From positions 101,077-165,076 of the IMG/VR virus record IMGVR_UViG_3300008120_000004: DNA of 64,000 bases; one strand, 5' to 3'. Below, piece after piece: positions 42,517-64,000 of this stretch (position 1 is the first letter of the stretch; every line of letters begins with the position of its first letter). A program made the translations under genes and the position numbers. This DNA comes from a virus. Below the pieces are notes generated by a model, which was given only the letters and a program-made list of their open reading frames with translations, was not told where the DNA came from and searched no databases.

Positions 42517-43542
42517 ATGAAAAAAATTATTTTAGCATTGTTGTTTCTTTTAGCTGGTCCTGCTTTTGCTGCGGAATTTACTGGAGCAGGAGCTACATTT
42601 CCATATCCAATCTACGCTAAATGGGCAGAGGCTTATAAAGCCCAGACTGGTATCGGTCTCAATTATCAATCTATAGGTTCAGGCGGCGGTATTCGTCAAA
42701 TCAAAGCTAAGACAGTAGACTTTGGTGCTAGTGATATGCCGTTAAAGCCAGAGGAATTAGAAAAAGAGGGTCTAGTACAATTTCCTGCTATTATCGGAGG
42801 TGTAGTACCTGTTTATAATCTAGAAGGAATAGAAGCAGGTAAACTAAAATTAACCCCAGAATTAATTGCTAACATTCATTTAGGTAAAATTACCAAATGG
42901 AATGATAAAGCTATTTCAGATTTAAATCCAGGTTTAACTCTTCCTGCTCTTAACATTACAGTCATACATCGCGCGGATGGTTCAGGTACTACTTTTATTT
43001 GGACAAATTTCTTAGGCAAAGCTAATGCTGAGTTTGCTAAAGTGGTAGGTGAAGGTACAGCTGTTAAATGGCCTACAGGGGTCGGTGGTAAAGGTAATGA
43101 AGGTGTAGCCGCTCAAGTACAAAGACTAAAAGGTGCTTTTGGTTACGTAGAATACGCATATGCTAAGCGTAATAAGATTCCTTTTGCAGCTGTAAAGAAC
43201 CGCGATGGTAACTTTGTATTACCAGACGACACTACATTTAAAGCTGCAGCAGCTAATGCTGATTGGAAAAACGCTCCTGGTATGTATCTACTCTTAACCT
43301 GGCAAACAGGTAAAGATGCATGGCCAGCTACAGGTGCTAGTTTTATTTTAATGCATAAACAACAAGCTGATGCATTGACAGGTCGTGCTGTATTAAAGTT
43401 CTTTGACTGGAGCTATAAAAACGGAAGCAAGATGTCTGAAGAGTTGGAGTACGTACACATGCCTGCTGATGTAATTAAGTTAGTACAAGAAAATTGGAAG
43501 CGTGACTTTAAAGGTCCCGACAGTAATCCTATTTGGAAATAA
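42517..43542 (+). CDS. pstS: Periplasmic phosphate-binding protein PstS
   Basis: PstS delivers phosphate to the PstCAB transporter. A Sec signal peptide ends near AGPAFA-AEF. The mature part shows FTGAGATFPYPIY, YQSIGSGGGIRQI, DFGASDMPL, and HRADGSGTTFIWTNFL with VGGKGNEGVAAQV, all phosphate-site segments. Length (341 aa) is normal. pstS is a known auxiliary metabolic gene of aquatic phages. The porin gene follows after 9 bases, making a two-gene phosphate-acquisition unit. Confidence 0.96.
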   Translation: MKKIILALLFLLAGPAFAAEFTGAGATFPYPIYAKWAEAYKAQTGIGLNYQSIGSGGGIRQIKAKTVDFGASDMPLKPEELEKEGLVQFPAIIGGVVPVYNLEGIEAGKLKLTPELIANIHLGKITKWNDKAISDLNPGLTLPALNITVIHRADGSGTTFIWTNFLGKANAEFAKVVGEGTAVKWPTGVGGKGNEGVAAQVQRLKGAFGYVEYAYAKRNKIPFAAVKNRDGNFVLPDDTTFKAAAANADWKNAPGMYLLLTWQTGKDAWPATGASFILMHKQQADALTGRAVLKFFDWSYKNGSKMSEELEYVHMPADVIKLVQENWKRDFKGPDSNPIWK

Positions 43543-43551
43543 GGGTAAATC

Positions 43552-44958
43552 ATGACTCTGTTCAAAAAAATTATTTTAATTACAGCTTTAGCAGCTGCAT
43601 GTCCTTCATATGCTGATGAGTATAAAAATACTCTTCTTATTCTTAAAGAAAAATTCATAATATCTCAACAGGAGTATGAAGATAAACTTAAAGCGTACGA
43701 AGAAAGAGAAGAAAATAAAAAGTTCGCTGAGCAAAGAATCGACAAAGATGTTAGCGATAACAACAAGTGGAGACAAGCCAGAGTTAATGACGGATCAGTC
43801 ACCGAAAATGGAATCGGGCTCAAGAGTAAAGATGGAAACAATACCATCCAACTTACAGGTCGAATTCATAATGACTATAGACACTATTCACCCTCTTACG
43901 GTCTCAATCAAGCCACGGATACGTATCAAAACGTAATTGAAATGCGTCGTGCACGATTAGGTGTAAGAGGCCAATTTGCAAAAGACTTTAAGTACGAAGT
44001 TGTAGGTAACTTTGGTAATGATGTCGGAGCATCTAGTACTTCTACTACTATGGACGTAGCCTGGGTTAATTATGCTGCTAGCCCAGAAGCTCAGTTTCAG
44101 TTTGGTTTGTTCAAGATGCCATTTAGCTTGGAGCAACTAACTAGCTCTAACAATATTGACTTTATGGAGCGTAGTTTAATTGGTCAAGTAGAAGGTGAGT
44201 TCATCCCTGGTAAAGAAACTGGCTTCATGCTGCACGGGGTACCTAAGCCTGGTCTTACCTATGCTGTTGCTTTAAGCCGAGGCAGAACTAACAAAGACGC
44301 TGTGTCAGATGGTTTAGATTATATCGGTAGAGTAACAACTAACATCGCTGACTTAACAGGAAGTAAAGCTTTTACAGCTCATTTAGGTGCTGCGTATAGC
44401 CAAGGTGAAGTAAGAGGTGGTGTTACTCCTTCTAGCGGAAGAACTGAATCACGTTCACAAAATGCATTCTTCACAGGCCCTGCATTGGGTGGAGTTACCA
44501 CAAGAACACGTCAAGGTATAGAAGCAGCTTTTGCATATAATGCATTCAAAGTTCAAGCAGAGCAATTTAACTTTAAATACGATCCTACAACAGGTAGTGA
44601 TCAAGAGATTAAAGGTTACTATGTTCAAGCTGTCTATAACCTAACTGGTGAGAGCTTTAATTACAAAGACGGTGTATTCAGCTCAATTAAACCTGCTTCA
44701 CCTATAGACAAAGGTGGCAAAGGGGCATGGCAGGTTGGTGTTCGTATGAGTGAGTTTGATGCAAGCCCTATTGCTGTGGCTGCAGGTAAAACTAATCGTG
44801 CTGTAGCAACAACTTATGGTATTACCTGGTTTGCTACAGAAAATTTACGTTTTATGGTAAACTATGTAGACACTAAATACGACCATTTAGTTGGCTCTTC
44901 CGGCGGAAGAGTAAACGGAGATAGAGCAATTATGTTTAGAAGCCAGTTAAATTTCTAA
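43552..44958 (+). CDS. Phosphate-selective porin (OprP/OprO family)
   Basis: The protein has a signal peptide (ending near PSYA-DEY), a 50-residue charged coiled-coil region, and then a beta-barrel rich in alternating aromatic/polar strands. Family segments include LTGRIHNDYRHYSP, EMRRARLGVRGQFAKDFKYEVVGNFG and FQFGLFKMPFSLEQLTSSNNIDFMER. It ends in Phe, the outer-membrane assembly signal. It would sit in the host outer membrane and pass phosphate to PstS. A terminator follows. Confidence 0.9.
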   Translation: MTLFKKIILITALAAACPSYADEYKNTLLILKEKFIISQQEYEDKLKAYEEREENKKFAEQRIDKDVSDNNKWRQARVNDGSVTENGIGLKSKDGNNTIQLTGRIHNDYRHYSPSYGLNQATDTYQNVIEMRRARLGVRGQFAKDFKYEVVGNFGNDVGASSTSTTMDVAWVNYAASPEAQFQFGLFKMPFSLEQLTSSNNIDFMERSLIGQVEGEFIPGKETGFMLHGVPKPGLTYAVALSRGRTNKDAVSDGLDYIGRVTTNIADLTGSKAFTAHLGAAYSQGEVRGGVTPSSGRTESRSQNAFFTGPALGGVTTRTRQGIEAAFAYNAFKVQAEQFNFKYDPTTGSDQEIKGYYVQAVYNLTGESFNYKDGVFSSIKPASPIDKGGKGAWQVGVRMSEFDASPIAVAAGKTNRAVATTYGITWFATENLRFMVNYVDTKYDHLVGSSGGRVNGDRAIMFRSQLNF

Positions 44959-60950: not shown

Positions 60951-60974
60951 GTTACGGGGCCTAGGCCCCGTAAC
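60951..60974. repeat. Perfect 24-bp palindrome
   Basis: GTTACGGGGCCT followed by AGGCCCCGTAAC. It ends three bases before a -35 element. No T-run follows. It could be a transcript-end hairpin for DUF932 or an operator for the leader promoter. Confidence 0.7.
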
Positions 60975-60976
60975 AG

Positions 60977-61005
60977 TTGCAAGTAACTCACTTATGGTAT
61001 ACAAT
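60977..61005 (+). promoter_or_regulatory. Sigma70-like promoter before tRNA leader
   Basis: TTGCAA (60977-60982), 17-base spacer, TACAAT (61000-61005), with AACAG upstream of the -35 as at other promoters. It would transcribe the structured leader at about 61012. Confidence 0.6.
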
Positions 61006-61011
61006 ATAGTT

Positions 61012-61187
61012 CTATGTTAAGCAAATCATCAACACTACAGCATTTTATTAGAGTAAATAATAGTTTACTCGGGTATTGCTTTGGTTCGATCGATCGCAAT
61101 ACATGGGAGCCAGAGGAGTCGAGGGACGTGTAACTAGTACTACAAATACACCAAACCCTCGGCTCCAAAAGACCCGAGGGTTTTTTT
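61012..61187 (+). ncRNA. Structured leader or small RNA upstream of the tRNA cluster
   Basis: The gene-free stretch 60941-61256 contains a promoter, about 175 transcribed bases and a terminator. Internal hairpins include GAGTAAA/TTTACTC and GTATTGC/GCAATAC around CGATCGATCG. Bases 61106-61110 plus 61120-61125 (GGAGC and CGAGGG) can pair with 61156-61166, which would open the terminator. No ORF of note is present. It may be an attenuating leader or a stand-alone RNA. Confidence 0.5.
61154..61187 (+). terminator. Rho-independent terminator before tRNA cluster
   Basis: AACCCTCGG and CCGAGGGTT form a 9-bp stem (11-base loop) with a 7-base T-run. Confidence 0.88.
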
Positions 61188-61256
61188 ATGTAACACACAA
61201 CGCTGTTGCATTTACTTGAGTAGTATAATATAATCTTTAAAAATTTGCGTACCTTA

Positions 61257-61332
61257 CCTTCCTTAGCTCAATTGGGAGAGCGTTCGCTTGATAAGCGAAA
61301 GGTACCTGGATCGAAACCAGGAGGAAGGACCA
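61257..61332 (+). tRNA. tRNA-Ile (GAT)
   Basis: Cloverleaf with acceptor CCTTCCT/AGGAAGG, anticodon loop TTGATAA, T arm CCTGG/CCAGG and encoded CCA. Confidence 0.93.
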
Positions 61333-61334
61333 GT

Positions 61335-61409
61335 GCACCGTTCGTCTATCGGTTAGGACATTGCCCTTTCACGGCAGTAAGAGGAGTTCGATTCTCCTAC
61401 GGTGTGCCA
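61335..61409 (+). tRNA. tRNA-Glu (TTC)
   Basis: Acceptor GCACCGT/ACGGTGT (first pair G-T), anticodon loop CTTTCAC, encoded CCA. Confidence 0.92.
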
Positions 61410-61528
61410 TTCAATATGCTAGTTGTAAGCCATGGGTTCGATCAAACCTGAGTAACTATGTACACAAACGGTAAAGCCGGCCGGACACTCCGTTGAGCAT
61501 AGCAAATAGTGCAGCTGGCATATTTAAT
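61410..61528. other. Non-coding gap in the tRNA cluster
   Basis: No complete tRNA or ORF is visible. A GGTT-CGATCA-AACC hairpin (within GGGTTCGATCAAACC) resembles a T arm, and AACGG/CCGTT encloses a CCGGCCGG palindrome. It may be a degraded tRNA or a spacer. Confidence 0.4.
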
Positions 61529-61606
61529 GGTATGGTGCTAGAGTGGTCCAATAGAACGGTCTGCAAAACCGTAAAGTCGTCGGTTCAAATCCGACCCATA
61601 CCTCCA
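61529..61606 (+). tRNA. tRNA-Cys (GCA)
   Basis: Acceptor GGTATGG/CCATACC, anticodon loop CTGCAAA, T arm with GGTTCAAATCC, encoded CCA. Confidence 0.93.
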
Positions 61607-61607
61607 A

Positions 61608-61684
61608 GGGCCGGAAGCTTAATTGGTATAAGCGTCCGACTCATAATCGGGGGACAGTGAGTTCGAGTCTCACCCGGCCCACCA
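61608..61684 (+). tRNA. tRNA with CAT anticodon (elongator Met or Ile2)
   Basis: Acceptor GGGCCGG/CCGGCCC, anticodon loop CTCATAA, encoded CCA. The G1-C72 pair argues against initiator Met. If the host lysidine synthetase modifies it, it would read ATA as Ile. Confidence 0.85.
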
Positions 61685-61688
61685 ATAC

Positions 61689-61765
61689 GGCTCGTTAGCT
61701 CAGTTGGTTAGAGCGCATGCCTGTCACGCATGAGGTCACCGGTTCGAGCCCGGTACGAGTCGCCA
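61689..61765 (+). tRNA. tRNA-Asp (GTC)
   Basis: Acceptor GGCTCGT/ACGAGTC, anticodon stem CATGC/GCATG with loop CTGTCAC, encoded CCA. Confidence 0.93.
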
Positions 61766-61775
61766 AAGGATTTTT

Positions 61776-62024
61776 ATGGACTATGTTGTAACTTTTTTTG
61801 CTATATTTTTTCTTGATATTGTTAATGCTTGGTATATTAAAGCTATTAGTGATGAAAGACCTTTTATGGCTAGTGTATGGGCTGTAGTAGTAACCTTAGC
61901 TTCAAGTGTTGCTATTATTAGCTATACAAGAGATAATACTATGGTTATACCTGCTCTTGCAGGAGCATTTGTTGGAACCTATGTTGGTATAGTAATAAGA
62001 AAACGTAAGATTATTGCCGAGTAG
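61776..62024 (+). CDS. Small membrane protein inside the tRNA cluster
   Basis: An 82-residue protein with three likely membrane helices (VVTFFAIFFLDIVNAWYIKAI, ASVWAVVVTLASSVAIISY, IPALAGAFVGTYVGIVI) and a basic end. An aagga site precedes the ATG. Its stop codon lies inside the tRNA-Asn gene (10-base overlap). Function unknown. Confidence 0.65.
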   Translation: MDYVVTFFAIFFLDIVNAWYIKAISDERPFMASVWAVVVTLASSVAIISYTRDNTMVIPALAGAFVGTYVGIVIRKRKIIAE

Positions 62025-62090
62025 CTCAGTGGTAGTAGCAGTTGACTGTTAATCAATTGGTCGTAGGTTCGATCCCTACCTCGGCAGCCA
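62015..62090 (+). tRNA. tRNA-Asn (GTT)
   Basis: Acceptor TGCCGAG/CTCGGCA, anticodon loop CTGTTAA, T arm GTAGG/CCTAC, encoded CCA. Overlaps the 3' end of the membrane-protein gene. Confidence 0.92.
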
Positions 62091-62097
62091 GTTGTAA

Positions 62098-62182
62098 GGG
62101 TGGCGAGCAGCATTGGTGACTGCAGCGGACTGTAAATCCGTCGCCTACGGCACACGGGGTTCGATTCCCTGGCCACCCACCA
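62098..62182 (+). tRNA. tRNA-Tyr (GTA)
   Basis: Acceptor GGGTGGC/GCCACCC, anticodon stem GCGGA/TCCGT with loop CTGTAAA, long variable arm, encoded CCA. Confidence 0.93.
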
Positions 62183-62189
62183 GTAGTAA

Positions 62190-62264
62190 GCGTCGTTAGT
62201 TCAGAGGTAGAACGCTGTCTTTACACGGCAGTTGTCGGTGGTTCGATTCCATCACGACGCACCA
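62190..62264 (+). tRNA. tRNA-Val (TAC)
   Basis: Acceptor GCGTCGT/ACGACGC, anticodon loop TTTACAC, encoded CCA. Confidence 0.93.
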
Positions 62265-62265
62265 A

Positions 62266-62341
62266 GGGGGTATAGCTCAGCTGGGAGAGCAGTAGCTTTG
62301 CAAGCTAAAGGTCATCGGTTCAATCCCGTTTACCTCCACCA
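62266..62341 (+). tRNA. tRNA-Ala (TGC)
   Basis: Acceptor GGGGGTA/TACCTCC (one G-T), anticodon loop TTTGCAA, encoded CCA. The outer anticodon-stem pair is G-A. Confidence 0.9.
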
Positions 62342-62344
62342 TAT

Positions 62345-62421
62345 CCGAGTTTAGCGCAGCCCGGTAGCGCATCTGCTTTGGGAGCAGAGGGTCGGGAGTT
62401 CAAATCTCTCAACTCGGACCA
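62345..62421 (+). tRNA. tRNA-Pro (TGG)
   Basis: Acceptor CCGAGTT/AACTCGG, anticodon stem TCTGC/GCAGA with loop TTTGGGA, encoded CCA. Confidence 0.92.
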
Positions 62422-62423
62422 AT

Positions 62424-62497
62424 TGGGGTATGGTGAAATGGTATCACACAGGATTTTGATTCCCGTGTCCTAGGTTCGATTCCTAGTACCCCTGCCA
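62424..62497 (+). tRNA. tRNA-Gln (TTG)
   Basis: Acceptor TGGGGTA/TACCCCT with a T1-T72 mismatch (a weak first pair is usual for tRNA-Gln), anticodon loop TTTTGAT, encoded CCA. Confidence 0.9.
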
Positions 62498-62593
62498 CCT
62501 ATAAGGAGAATAACAAATGGGGCAATGCTGGTTTGTATCTTTGTAGTAATATTTTTAATTTTTGTGCATAAGAATTTTTAAGGAGATCCTGTT

Positions 62594-62632
62594 ATGGATA
62601 GTGACAAGAGTGGTAAGGTGAAGGGAGTATAG
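62594..62632 (+). CDS. Possible 12-residue peptide ORF before tRNA-Lys
   Basis: MDSDKSGKVKGV follows a strong aaggag site 8 bases upstream, and its stop lies inside tRNA-Lys. A second micro-ORF (MLVCIFVVIFLIFVHKNF, 62525-62581) lies just upstream, also after an aaggag. Expression is unproven. Confidence 0.25.
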   Translation: MDSDKSGKVKGV

Positions 62633-62698
62633 TCAAACGGTTAAGACAGCGGACTTTTAATCCGTCAGGTCAGGGTTCGAGTCCCTGTGCTCCCACCA
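62623..62698 (+). tRNA. tRNA-Lys (TTT)
   Basis: Acceptor GGGAGTA/TGCTCCC (one T-G), anticodon stem GCGGA/TCCGT with loop CTTTTAA, encoded CCA. Confidence 0.92.
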
Positions 62699-62772
62699 TA
62701 TAAAAACACATTAGTTCTAAGGGTTGTTCCGAAGGTAATTATCTTCTATGAAGTCCTAGTGTGTTTCTATAT
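62698..62772 (+). other. Long hairpin between tRNA-Lys and tRNA-His
   Basis: Bases 62698-62714 pair with 62756-62772 at 16 of 17 positions (one G-T among them) around a 41-base loop containing GAAG/CTTC. It exactly fills the gap between two tRNAs. It may be a processing signal or a structured RNA. Confidence 0.6.
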
Positions 62773-62846
62773 GTTGTTCCTAGTGTAGTGGTCGCACACC
62801 TGTCTGTGAAACAGGTAGAGAGGGTTCGATTCCCCGGTTCAACCCA
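62773..62846 (+). tRNA. tRNA-His (GTG), atypical
   Basis: D arm, anticodon stem CCTGT/ACAGG and loop CTGTGAA are good, and the G-1/C73 pair is present. The acceptor GTTGTTCC/GGTTCAAC has two adjacent T-T mismatches and the T arm is one base short. It may be degenerate or may need editing or tolerant processing. Confidence 0.7.
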
Positions 62847-62848
62847 AT

Positions 62849-62924
62849 GCTACTTTAGCTGATGTGGTCATAGCGGCGGTCTGAAGAACCGTTGAACCAG
62901 GTTCGATTCCTGGAGGTAGCACCA
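62849..62924 (+). tRNA. tRNA-Phe (GAA)
   Basis: Acceptor GCTACTT/AGGTAGC, anticodon loop CTGAAGA, T arm CCAGG/CCTGG, encoded CCA. Confidence 0.92.
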
Positions 62925-62933
62925 TAAGTAAAT

Positions 62934-63021
62934 GGAAGTGTGGTCGAGTGGTCTATGGCGCTAGTCTTGAAAACTAGAGGCTCGAAAGGGTCCGTGGGTT
63001 CGAATCCTACCACTTCCGCCA
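62934..63021 (+). tRNA. tRNA-Ser (TGA)
   Basis: Acceptor GGAAGTG/CACTTCC, anticodon stem CTAGT/ACTAG with loop CTTGAAA, long variable arm, encoded CCA. Confidence 0.93.
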
Positions 63022-63027
63022 TTACAA

Positions 63028-63118
63028 GGAGATATGGCTGAGAGGCTTAAGGCAGCGGTTTGCTAAACCGTCGATCATTTAAAATGATCCGTTGGTTCGA
63101 ATCCAACTATCTCCGCCA
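63028..63118 (+). tRNA. tRNA-Ser (GCT)
   Basis: Acceptor GGAGATA/TATCTCC, anticodon loop TTGCTAA, long variable arm with GATCATTT/AAATGATC, encoded CCA. Confidence 0.93.
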
Positions 63119-63119
63119 A

Positions 63120-63194
63120 GGTGATATGGCGTAGACGGATGCGCACAAGTTTCATAAGCTTAGGAGATTGGATCGTTACCAATTATCACCACCA
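63120..63194 (+). tRNA. tRNA with CAT anticodon (Met or Ile2), second copy
   Basis: Acceptor GGTGATA/TATCACC, anticodon loop TTCATAA, T arm ATTGG/CCAAT, encoded CCA. It differs throughout from the CAT tRNA at 61608, so the two probably have different amino acid identities. Confidence 0.85.
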
Positions 63195-63203
63195 GGAGAT
63201 ACA

Positions 63204-63392
63204 ATGGATACTTTAATCGATGCTTTACCTTGGTTACTAGTCATACATTTATGGACTGACCCACCACCTAAGATGCAATTTGTTTATAAGAAAGAATATC
63301 CATCCTATCAACAATGTATGCAAGCAAGAGAAGAATGGATTAAGGTAAATAACCCACCACCTGATTTTAAGGTGTTATGTTTACTAAAATAG
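63204..63392 (+). CDS. Small hypothetical protein inside the tRNA cluster
   Basis: A 62-residue ORF with an N-terminal hydrophobic stretch (LIDALPWLLVIHLW) and a later YPSYQQCMQAREEWIKVNNPPPDFKVLCL, giving two Cys. ATG 63204 has aggag 5 bases upstream. Its stop overlaps the first base of tRNA-Leu. Confidence 0.6.
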   Translation: MDTLIDALPWLLVIHLWTDPPPKMQFVYKKEYPSYQQCMQAREEWIKVNNPPPDFKVLCLLK

Positions 63393-63475
63393 CGGATATG
63401 GTGTAATGGTAGCCACGCTGGTCTTAGAAGCCAGTGCCGTAAGGCGTGGGGGTTCAAGTCCCTCTATCCGCACCA
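63392..63475 (+). tRNA. tRNA-Leu (TAG)
   Basis: Acceptor GCGGATA/TATCCGC, anticodon loop CTTAGAA, long variable arm, encoded CCA. Confidence 0.92.
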
Positions 63476-63484
63476 AGGATAATT

Positions 63485-63661
63485 ATGGAAGATATAGTTT
63501 TAACTAAACAACAAATTTTTAATCTATTAAAAATATACGATCACTTTCGTAACTATGATGACTTTACGGTAACCTTAGGTCAAGAAGGTAAAGTGAGCGT
63601 TAGTTTTGATTCTAGAAAACTAGATCAAAAGATTGATAGAACATTTGTTCCAACCCTTTAA
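63485..63661 (+). CDS. Small hypothetical protein inside the tRNA cluster
   Basis: A 58-residue ORF (LTKQQIFNLLKIYDHFRNYDDFTVTLGQEGKVSVSFDSRKLDQ) with aagga upstream of ATG 63485. It ends one base before tRNA-Arg(TCT). No family recognised. Confidence 0.6.
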   Translation: MEDIVLTKQQIFNLLKIYDHFRNYDDFTVTLGQEGKVSVSFDSRKLDQKIDRTFVPTL

Positions 63662-63662
63662 C

Positions 63663-63737
63663 CTGGCGTTAGTATAATGGACAATACAGGAGACTTCTAA
63701 TCTCTAGATGGGGGTTCGATTCCCTCACGCCGGACCA
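63663..63737 (+). tRNA. tRNA-Arg (TCT)
   Basis: Acceptor CTGGCGT/ACGCCGG, anticodon stem GGAGA/TCTCT with loop CTTCTAA, encoded CCA. Confidence 0.92.
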
Positions 63738-63742
63738 ATTTT

Positions 63743-63819
63743 CCGCCCTTAGCTCAATGGACAAGAGCACTTGGCTACGGACCAAGAGGTTAGGAGTTCG
63801 ACTCTTCTAGGGCGGTCCA
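63743..63819 (+). tRNA. tRNA-Arg (ACG)
   Basis: Acceptor CCGCCCT/AGGGCGG, anticodon stem CTTGG/CCAAG with loop CTACGGA, encoded CCA. Confidence 0.92.
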
Positions 63820-63824
63820 AGACT

Positions 63825-64000
63825 ATGGAAAAAAATTTATCTTATTACATACGTAAGTATAAAGCCTTTGATGATAACAAGTGTGATGAAATAGTTTATG
63901 AGTTATCTAATGTAGAGTGGTTACAACATAAATTCTATAACAGTGCTAGTAATACCTATGCAAGTTATGATAAAGAGCTTTCTATTTCTCATGATAGTAT
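63825..64000 (+). CDS. Partial gene, possible 2OG-Fe(II) oxygenase N-terminus
   Basis: The frame from ATG 63825 is open to the window end (58 residues). It reads LSYYIRKYKAFDDNKCDEIVYELSNVEWLQHKFYNS and ends near DKELSISHD, similar in pattern to the N-terminal part of P4H-like phage oxygenases. The catalytic part lies outside the window. Confidence 0.5.
   Translation, partial: MEKNLSYYIRKYKAFDDNKCDEIVYELSNVEWLQHKFYNSASNTYASYDKELSISHDS

Follow-up and report, generated by a model that had tools for sequence, protein, structure and literature searches.

T-box leaders bind tRNA directly, sense its charging, and control the choice between a terminator and an antiterminator. Translation-coupled attenuation is classical for the trp, his, leu, thr, ilv, and pheA operons, whose regulatory codons specify the one or few amino acids that the operon makes (PMC1183508). 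For phages, the reason for carrying tRNAs is described as unclear for over 50 years (PMC10264068); phage tRNAs are reported to counter tRNA-cutting defenses (PMC10264068, PMC11555353), newer evidence has them replacing tRNAs that host defenses destroy (PMC11555353), and, for T5-like phages, a strong promoter is emphasized (PMC11555353). These papers treat the tRNAs as supplied, and the text consulted describes no tRNA-sensing switch (PMC10264068, PMC11555353). Neither an all-amino-acid leader nor attenuation of a tRNA operon was found in searches of an open-access library.

Here we describe a leader ahead of a phage tRNA cluster that is likely a ribosome-mediated transcription attenuator for the tRNA operon. 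It shares with the amino acid operon attenuators (PMC1183508) a leader ORF, a terminator, an antiterminator that cannot coexist with it, and a stop codon located such that the outcome depends on where the ribosome is; unlike them, it draws on 19–20 amino acids and almost the full set of codon boxes, it controls tRNAs, and it is carried by a phage. Its peptide, which has almost all of the 20 amino acids, points to translation-coupled attenuation. Like T-box leaders, the phage leader would tie the sensing of tRNA charging to the choice between terminator and antiterminator but, unlike them, would sense through the translating ribosome. An Rfam search found no T-box riboswitch, whether at the gathering score or with E values as high as 10, and tRNAs were the sole matches in the analyzed DNA. 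The best sub-threshold match to the leader, His_leader (23.4 bits against a gathering score of 49), was given no weight because its score rests on the terminator.

The DNA analyzed, hereafter the window, is 64,000 bases long and closes a virus record of 165,076 bases, which finishes at window position 64000. Reading of its ORFs alone gives what we take to be a T4-like myovirus. Two neighboring ORFs at 42517–44958 presumably belong to the phosphate-binding protein (PstS) and phosphate-selective porin families, and they are perhaps carried for host phosphate uptake. An 82-amino-acid, membrane-like ORF (61776–62024) lies within the tRNA cluster and ends inside tRNA-Asn. The promoter, structured leader, and strong terminator that an earlier note had placed ahead of the tRNAs are all present, as is the perfect palindrome it reported before the promoter (Table 1). 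None of 200 shuffles folds as well as the leader (z −4.2). The earlier note had missed the leader ORF, the last codons of which form the 5′ arm of the antiterminator.

Table 1. Features of the leader and tRNA cluster in the window
Feature	Position	Strand	Details
Perfect inverted repeat	60951–60974	.	GTTACGGGGCCTAGGCCCCGTAAC; 24 bp; just 5′ of P1
Promoter P1	60977–61005	+	TTGCAA-17-TACAAT; sigma-70-type
Leader	61012–61187	+	P1 upstream, tRNA cluster downstream
Leader ORF	61014–61133	+	39 codons, MLSKSSTLQHFIRVNNSLLGYCFGSIDRNTWEPEESRDV, then stop; ATG 8 nt past the −10 hexamer
Hairpin within ORF	61051–61070	+	GAGTAAA / TTTACTC
Antiterminator 5′ arm	61115–61125	+	GGAGTCGAGGG; in last ORF codons
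Antiterminator inner stem, 5′ side	61128–61132	+	GTGTA; overlaps stop codon; partner 61147–61151
Antiterminator inner stem, 3′ side	61147–61151	+	TACAC
Intrinsic terminator	61153–61187	+	5′ arm 61153–61162, 3′ arm from 61174; −16.9 kcal/mol
Antiterminator 3′ arm	61156–61166	+	CCCTCGGCTCC; first seven bases also core of terminator 5′ arm
Terminator T run	61181–61187	+	T7
Candidate second promoter P2	61206–61234	+	TTGCAT-17-TATAAT; read from sequence; under scanner threshold
boxA-like element	61232–61242	+	AATCTTTAAAA; 9/11 against GYTCTTTAANA; followed by conserved ATTTGCGTACC
tRNA cluster	61257–63819	+	20 genes; first is tRNA-Ile(GAT)

The leader was compared with viral contigs that have the neighboring gene, and an open leader frame was also found in the relatives (L004, MLNLIQKPSHLSRVAASQLPGYCFGFRSGNTWEIDPGARDV; L008, MLSLITKPSHSRVAQLPGYRFGFCSGNTWEIDPGAREL; L007, MLTQMHQLTKRSTGSQMPGYRFGICVASEWDNPPGYV). 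A scan for boxA-like sequences before tRNAs returned 45 stretches, among them members of a second family, whose clusters have tRNA-Gln as their first gene, and a pattern built from the antiterminator of this family alone returned further members. In total, 51 distinct viral leaders share this layout, six with tRNA-Ile first and 45 with tRNA-Gln first, each having a short ORF between the promoter and the controlled genes. The order in the tRNA-Gln family is promoter, near-leaderless ORF of ~40 codons, antiterminator, terminator, sometimes a second promoter, boxA, and tRNAs. The clusters behind the leaders hold 18–31 tRNAs, and many of these clusters cover 19–20 amino acids. A promoter-based scan was too unspecific and added one new leader (L240), and the aligned peptides varied too much to support a profile scan. 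Among 50,697 known-phage records, none held a convincing relative of the leader at the DNA or peptide level, and the tRNA clusters of six known phages (Erwinia SNUABM_43, Salmonella SP3, Caulobacter Ccr10, Pseudomonas PE09, Enterobacter EnC15, and Stenotrophomonas Moby) showed no amino-acid-rich ORF with a terminator; the ORFs there with all 20 amino acids cross tRNA genes or are without a terminator. Three matches to the antiterminator pattern in cellular genomes were attributed to chance, and none had an ATG-started ORF.

Matches of the P1 type are by themselves no more common in the window than chance (9 found, 8.2 expected), and AGTTGC-N17-TATAAT is conserved at the P1 site in five relatives (L004, L007, L008, L074, and L240). 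In the window and its relatives, the ATG lies 5–8 nt 3′ of the −10 hexamer, so an mRNA nearly without a 5′ untranslated part is expected. In most leaders of the tRNA-Gln family, inverted repeats of the type AACCCTAC...GTAAGGTT, with some variation, lie at a similar distance 5′ of P1, and the palindrome of the window is similarly placed; a role for either is putative.

The leader peptides have few motifs in common. All 20 amino acids occur in 39 of the 51 peptides (36–45 residues long) and 19 in the other 12, counts that are not independent because the leaders are related by descent. Codon boxes were counted as one per amino acid, except that Leu, Ser, Arg, and Ile were divided by tRNA family, which makes 24 in total; 29 leaders have all 24, 19 have 23, and three have 22. 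A census selected by the antiterminator hairpin only yielded 44 distinct viral peptides; every one had at least 19 amino acids, 33 had 20, and the codon boxes numbered 24 in 26 peptides, 23 in 17, and 22 in one. As background, 0.6% of 40-residue windows in the proteins of the window hold 20 amino acids, and 26,705 windows of 40 codons taken from surrounding genes average 17.5 boxes without a single one reaching 24. Of 2,258 similarly long ATG ORFs in the collected loci, 31 have 20 amino acids, and 27 of these are leaders or shorter leader starts.

Individual residues shift without loss of completeness; the positions of Cys, Gln, Tyr, and Val, for example, differ among leaders. When alignment columns were shuffled 5,000 times, 5.0 ± 1.9 peptides were complete (maximum 13) compared with 34 of 45 observed, and when the set was reduced to members below 70% identity 14 of 17 were complete compared with 2.4 ± 1.3; within a control that ignores tree structure, completeness is therefore more than a product of column composition. 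The regulatory codons match the controlled product in a generalized form, with 19–20 amino acids in the leader and at most 20 isotypes in the tRNAs. We consider it probable that the leader is a universal sensor of tRNA shortage, selected to cover essentially every amino acid and codon box, in which the loss of almost any tRNA would turn on the whole replacement tRNA set. The window itself is not the best member: its peptide has 19 of 20 amino acids (no Ala) and 22 of 24 codon boxes, and there is a possible P2.

The antiterminator pairing described in the earlier note exists, although its best version differs slightly, being an unbulged run of 11 pairs, one of them G-U; one of 500 shuffles of the 5′ side was equal to it. 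In every leader that was folded, the RNA up to the terminator 5′ arm makes an antiterminator that uses this arm, and an intrinsic terminator lies between the ORF and the genes. The arms are wholly different between the families (GGAGTCGAGGG/CCCTCGGCTCC in the window and GGGGGTTTTGG/CCAAAACCCTC in the tRNA-Gln family; GGGGTACGTGT/ACACGTACCCC in L007), and in both families the 5′ and 3′ arms overlap the ORF end and the terminator, respectively. In the tRNA-Gln family, the stop codon is inside the 5′ arm. The duplex is weak in L008, where 109 of 500 shuffles did as well. The terminator of the tRNA-Gln family shows clear compensatory changes (32 double-change cells compared with 11.0 ± 2.2), and covariation of the antiterminator within this family speaks neither for nor against it because the arms hardly vary. 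One mismatch in that stem (alignment columns 22 and 55) varies in a coordinated way, as A/C in 23 cases, C/A in 17, and A/T in four, with A/A or C/C never seen.

Some peptide motifs recur, LPGYxFG in the tRNA-Ile family and LPL..GW and GGFGK in the tRNA-Gln family, as might be expected if the nascent peptide stalled the ribosome in response to a ligand, in the manner of the TnaC or ErmBL leaders, and completeness were incidental. We consider such arrest highly improbable: the LPL..GW codons also form an RNA hairpin with compensatory changes, corresponding to the hairpin within the ORF of the window, GGFGK is the antiterminator arm, and the two families have no arrest-like C terminus in common.

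The attenuator over the tRNA cluster that the earlier note had suggested gains further support from loci where read-through appears to be the only route to the tRNAs. In L004 and L008, boxA and then tRNA-Ile follow immediately 3′ of the T run, with no P2-like site between terminator and tRNAs. In 17 of 44 loci of the tRNA-Gln family, the T run is 20–26 nt from boxA without a promoter match, and L260 and L262 have the same promoterless layout by eye, for a total of 19 of 44. An alternative promoter is thus visibly absent, as far as can be read from the DNA, in part of the family, and because none is visible between terminator and tRNAs in at least 21 relatives, their tRNAs need read-through. 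Together with the recurrence of the same order in two families with entirely different arms, this argues for attenuation.

Other members have a second promoter, perhaps including the window; P2-like sites are present in L007, L074, and L240. The earlier note had held that tRNA transcripts starting 3′ of position 61187 would speak against attenuation, and for the window only, candidate P2 supplies this in part. A transcript from P2 would miss most of boxA because the P2 −10 hexamer overlaps the boxA-like sequence. These P2-like sites, along with a promoter and terminator that bound a transcript of ~176 nt, are what would be expected of a gene for a small protein or small RNA with its own terminator, next to an independently transcribed tRNA cluster by chance or gene order. 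This is very unlikely, given that many relatives have no P2, that the peptides keep a fixed amino acid set with little fixed sequence, and that the antiterminator recurs in all relatives. The self-contained RNA of ~175 bases that the earlier note offered as an alternative corresponds to the terminated product of the attenuator; as a non-coding small RNA, it would leave unexplained the conserved ORF, the recurring antiterminator, and the read-through needed in relatives without P2.

GYTCTTTAANA is the boxA consensus (PMC5725501), and relatives such as L004 match it at 11 of 11 positions (GTTCTTTAAAA), whereas the copy in the window matches at 9 of 11. As with the boxA/Nus sites of rRNA operons (PMC5725501), the element precedes an untranslated RNA operon; unlike those, it stands before a phage tRNA cluster and past an attenuator. 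The boxA-like element would presumably act through NusB/S10. In tRNA-Gln family members without a second promoter (L077, L079, L088, L099, L093, and others), a small hairpin that resembles a boxB element lies just 5′ of boxA, with a near-constant hexaloop, CAUCGU, and stems that vary (GGC/GCC, AGC/GCU, GGG/CCC, and UUGU/ACAA). In L111, a frame resembling an HNH endonuclease has seemingly been inserted between the leader terminator (~4410) and boxA (4886).

Ribosome position was modeled by equilibrium folding, which leaves out folding kinetics, with the ribosome masking RNA up to 13 nt ahead of the start of the A-site codon. For the window, the predicted probability of the terminator is 0.99–0.96 with A-site codons 0 to −8, 0.36 at −9, and 0.00 from −10 upstream. 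Consistent with the stop codon in or beside the 5′ arm, a ribosome that finishes the ORF blocks the antiterminator in this equilibrium model. Because a finished ORF would hide the 5′ arm and an earlier stall would free it, the predicted direction is termination after completion and read-through after a stall. The tRNA-Ile family mostly behaves like the window, L008 less cleanly. In the tRNA-Gln family, the switch is weak, with probabilities of ~0.5 rather than 0 and near balance at equilibrium, and stalls more than ~20 codons upstream drift back toward termination. A protector (1:2) hairpin, which would cause termination in the absence of translation, is not predicted in the window and is suggested in part of the tRNA-Gln family.

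Stalls in the last ~9 codons still terminate in the model, so residues confined to that region would not be sensed. These are Glu, Pro, and Trp in the window and, in the tRNA-Gln family, Asp, found only at the ORF end (~seven codons before the stop) in all leaders, and often Glu and Tyr. Completeness by codon box has a median P of 0.00005 for the whole ORF and 0.0025 for the part sensed in the model; since the whole ORF is the rarer, either the model is too simple or the end codons matter in another way.

The model also predicts the antiterminator for the window when no ribosome is present (terminator probability 0.00). With the near-leaderless ORF, this would fit a switch that responds to general translation capacity rather than to single tRNAs, where failed initiation or completion of the leader ORF, through ribosome shortage, a drug, or host shut-off, frees the antiterminator and turns on the tRNAs, and the 20-amino-acid content is secondary. 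We find this unlikely. It does not predict near-complete coverage of amino acids and codon boxes kept despite sequence turnover, and in several tRNA-Gln family members the absence of a ribosome favors the terminator. A near-complete leader ahead of a near-complete tRNA set is best read as a sensor of almost any tRNA shortage.

For such a sensor, we propose that transcription would start at P1, at the ATG or a few bases away, and that a ribosome would read the ~40-codon ORF, in which nearly all amino acids and each half of the split codon families are sampled. Comparison of the sequences establishes the ORF and its amino acid completeness, the overlapping hairpins, and the position of the stop codon; the ORF would presumably be translated. 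With all tRNAs available, the ribosome at the stop codon would cover the antiterminator 5′ arm, the terminator would form, and the tRNAs would be off. Were one of most tRNAs missing or uncharged, the ribosome would stall upstream, and the antiterminator would form first and capture the terminator 5′ arm; stalling would thereby raise read-through, and the polymerase would pass the boxA-like element into the tRNA cluster. The signal would presumably be tRNA shortage during infection. The phage clusters for which an anti-defense role is reported are likewise large sets that replace depleted host tRNAs (PMC10264068, PMC11555353). If the proposal is true, a switch that senses tRNA shortage would support the replacement view of phage tRNAs and give it a direct test, attenuation would no longer be confined to sensing one amino acid or a few but would reach almost the entire tRNA pool, and the leader would be a natural reporter of tRNA depletion.

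Two minor observations concern the related contigs. At position 12080 of L115, the place that tRNA-Tyr takes in L080 is filled by a tRNA whose anticodon corresponds to a stop codon and which may be a suppressor. A structured RNA of ~140 nt lies 3′ of the same DUF932-like gene in four contigs (L004:6035–6184, L011:6029–6178, L023:6879–6952, and L240:3409–3442). It has no Rfam match for L004 or L011, and in its long closing stem the sequences of these two differ while pairing is kept (GTAAGTGTAAC/GTTACACTTAC compared with GTTAGTGCTACA/TGTAGCACTAAC).
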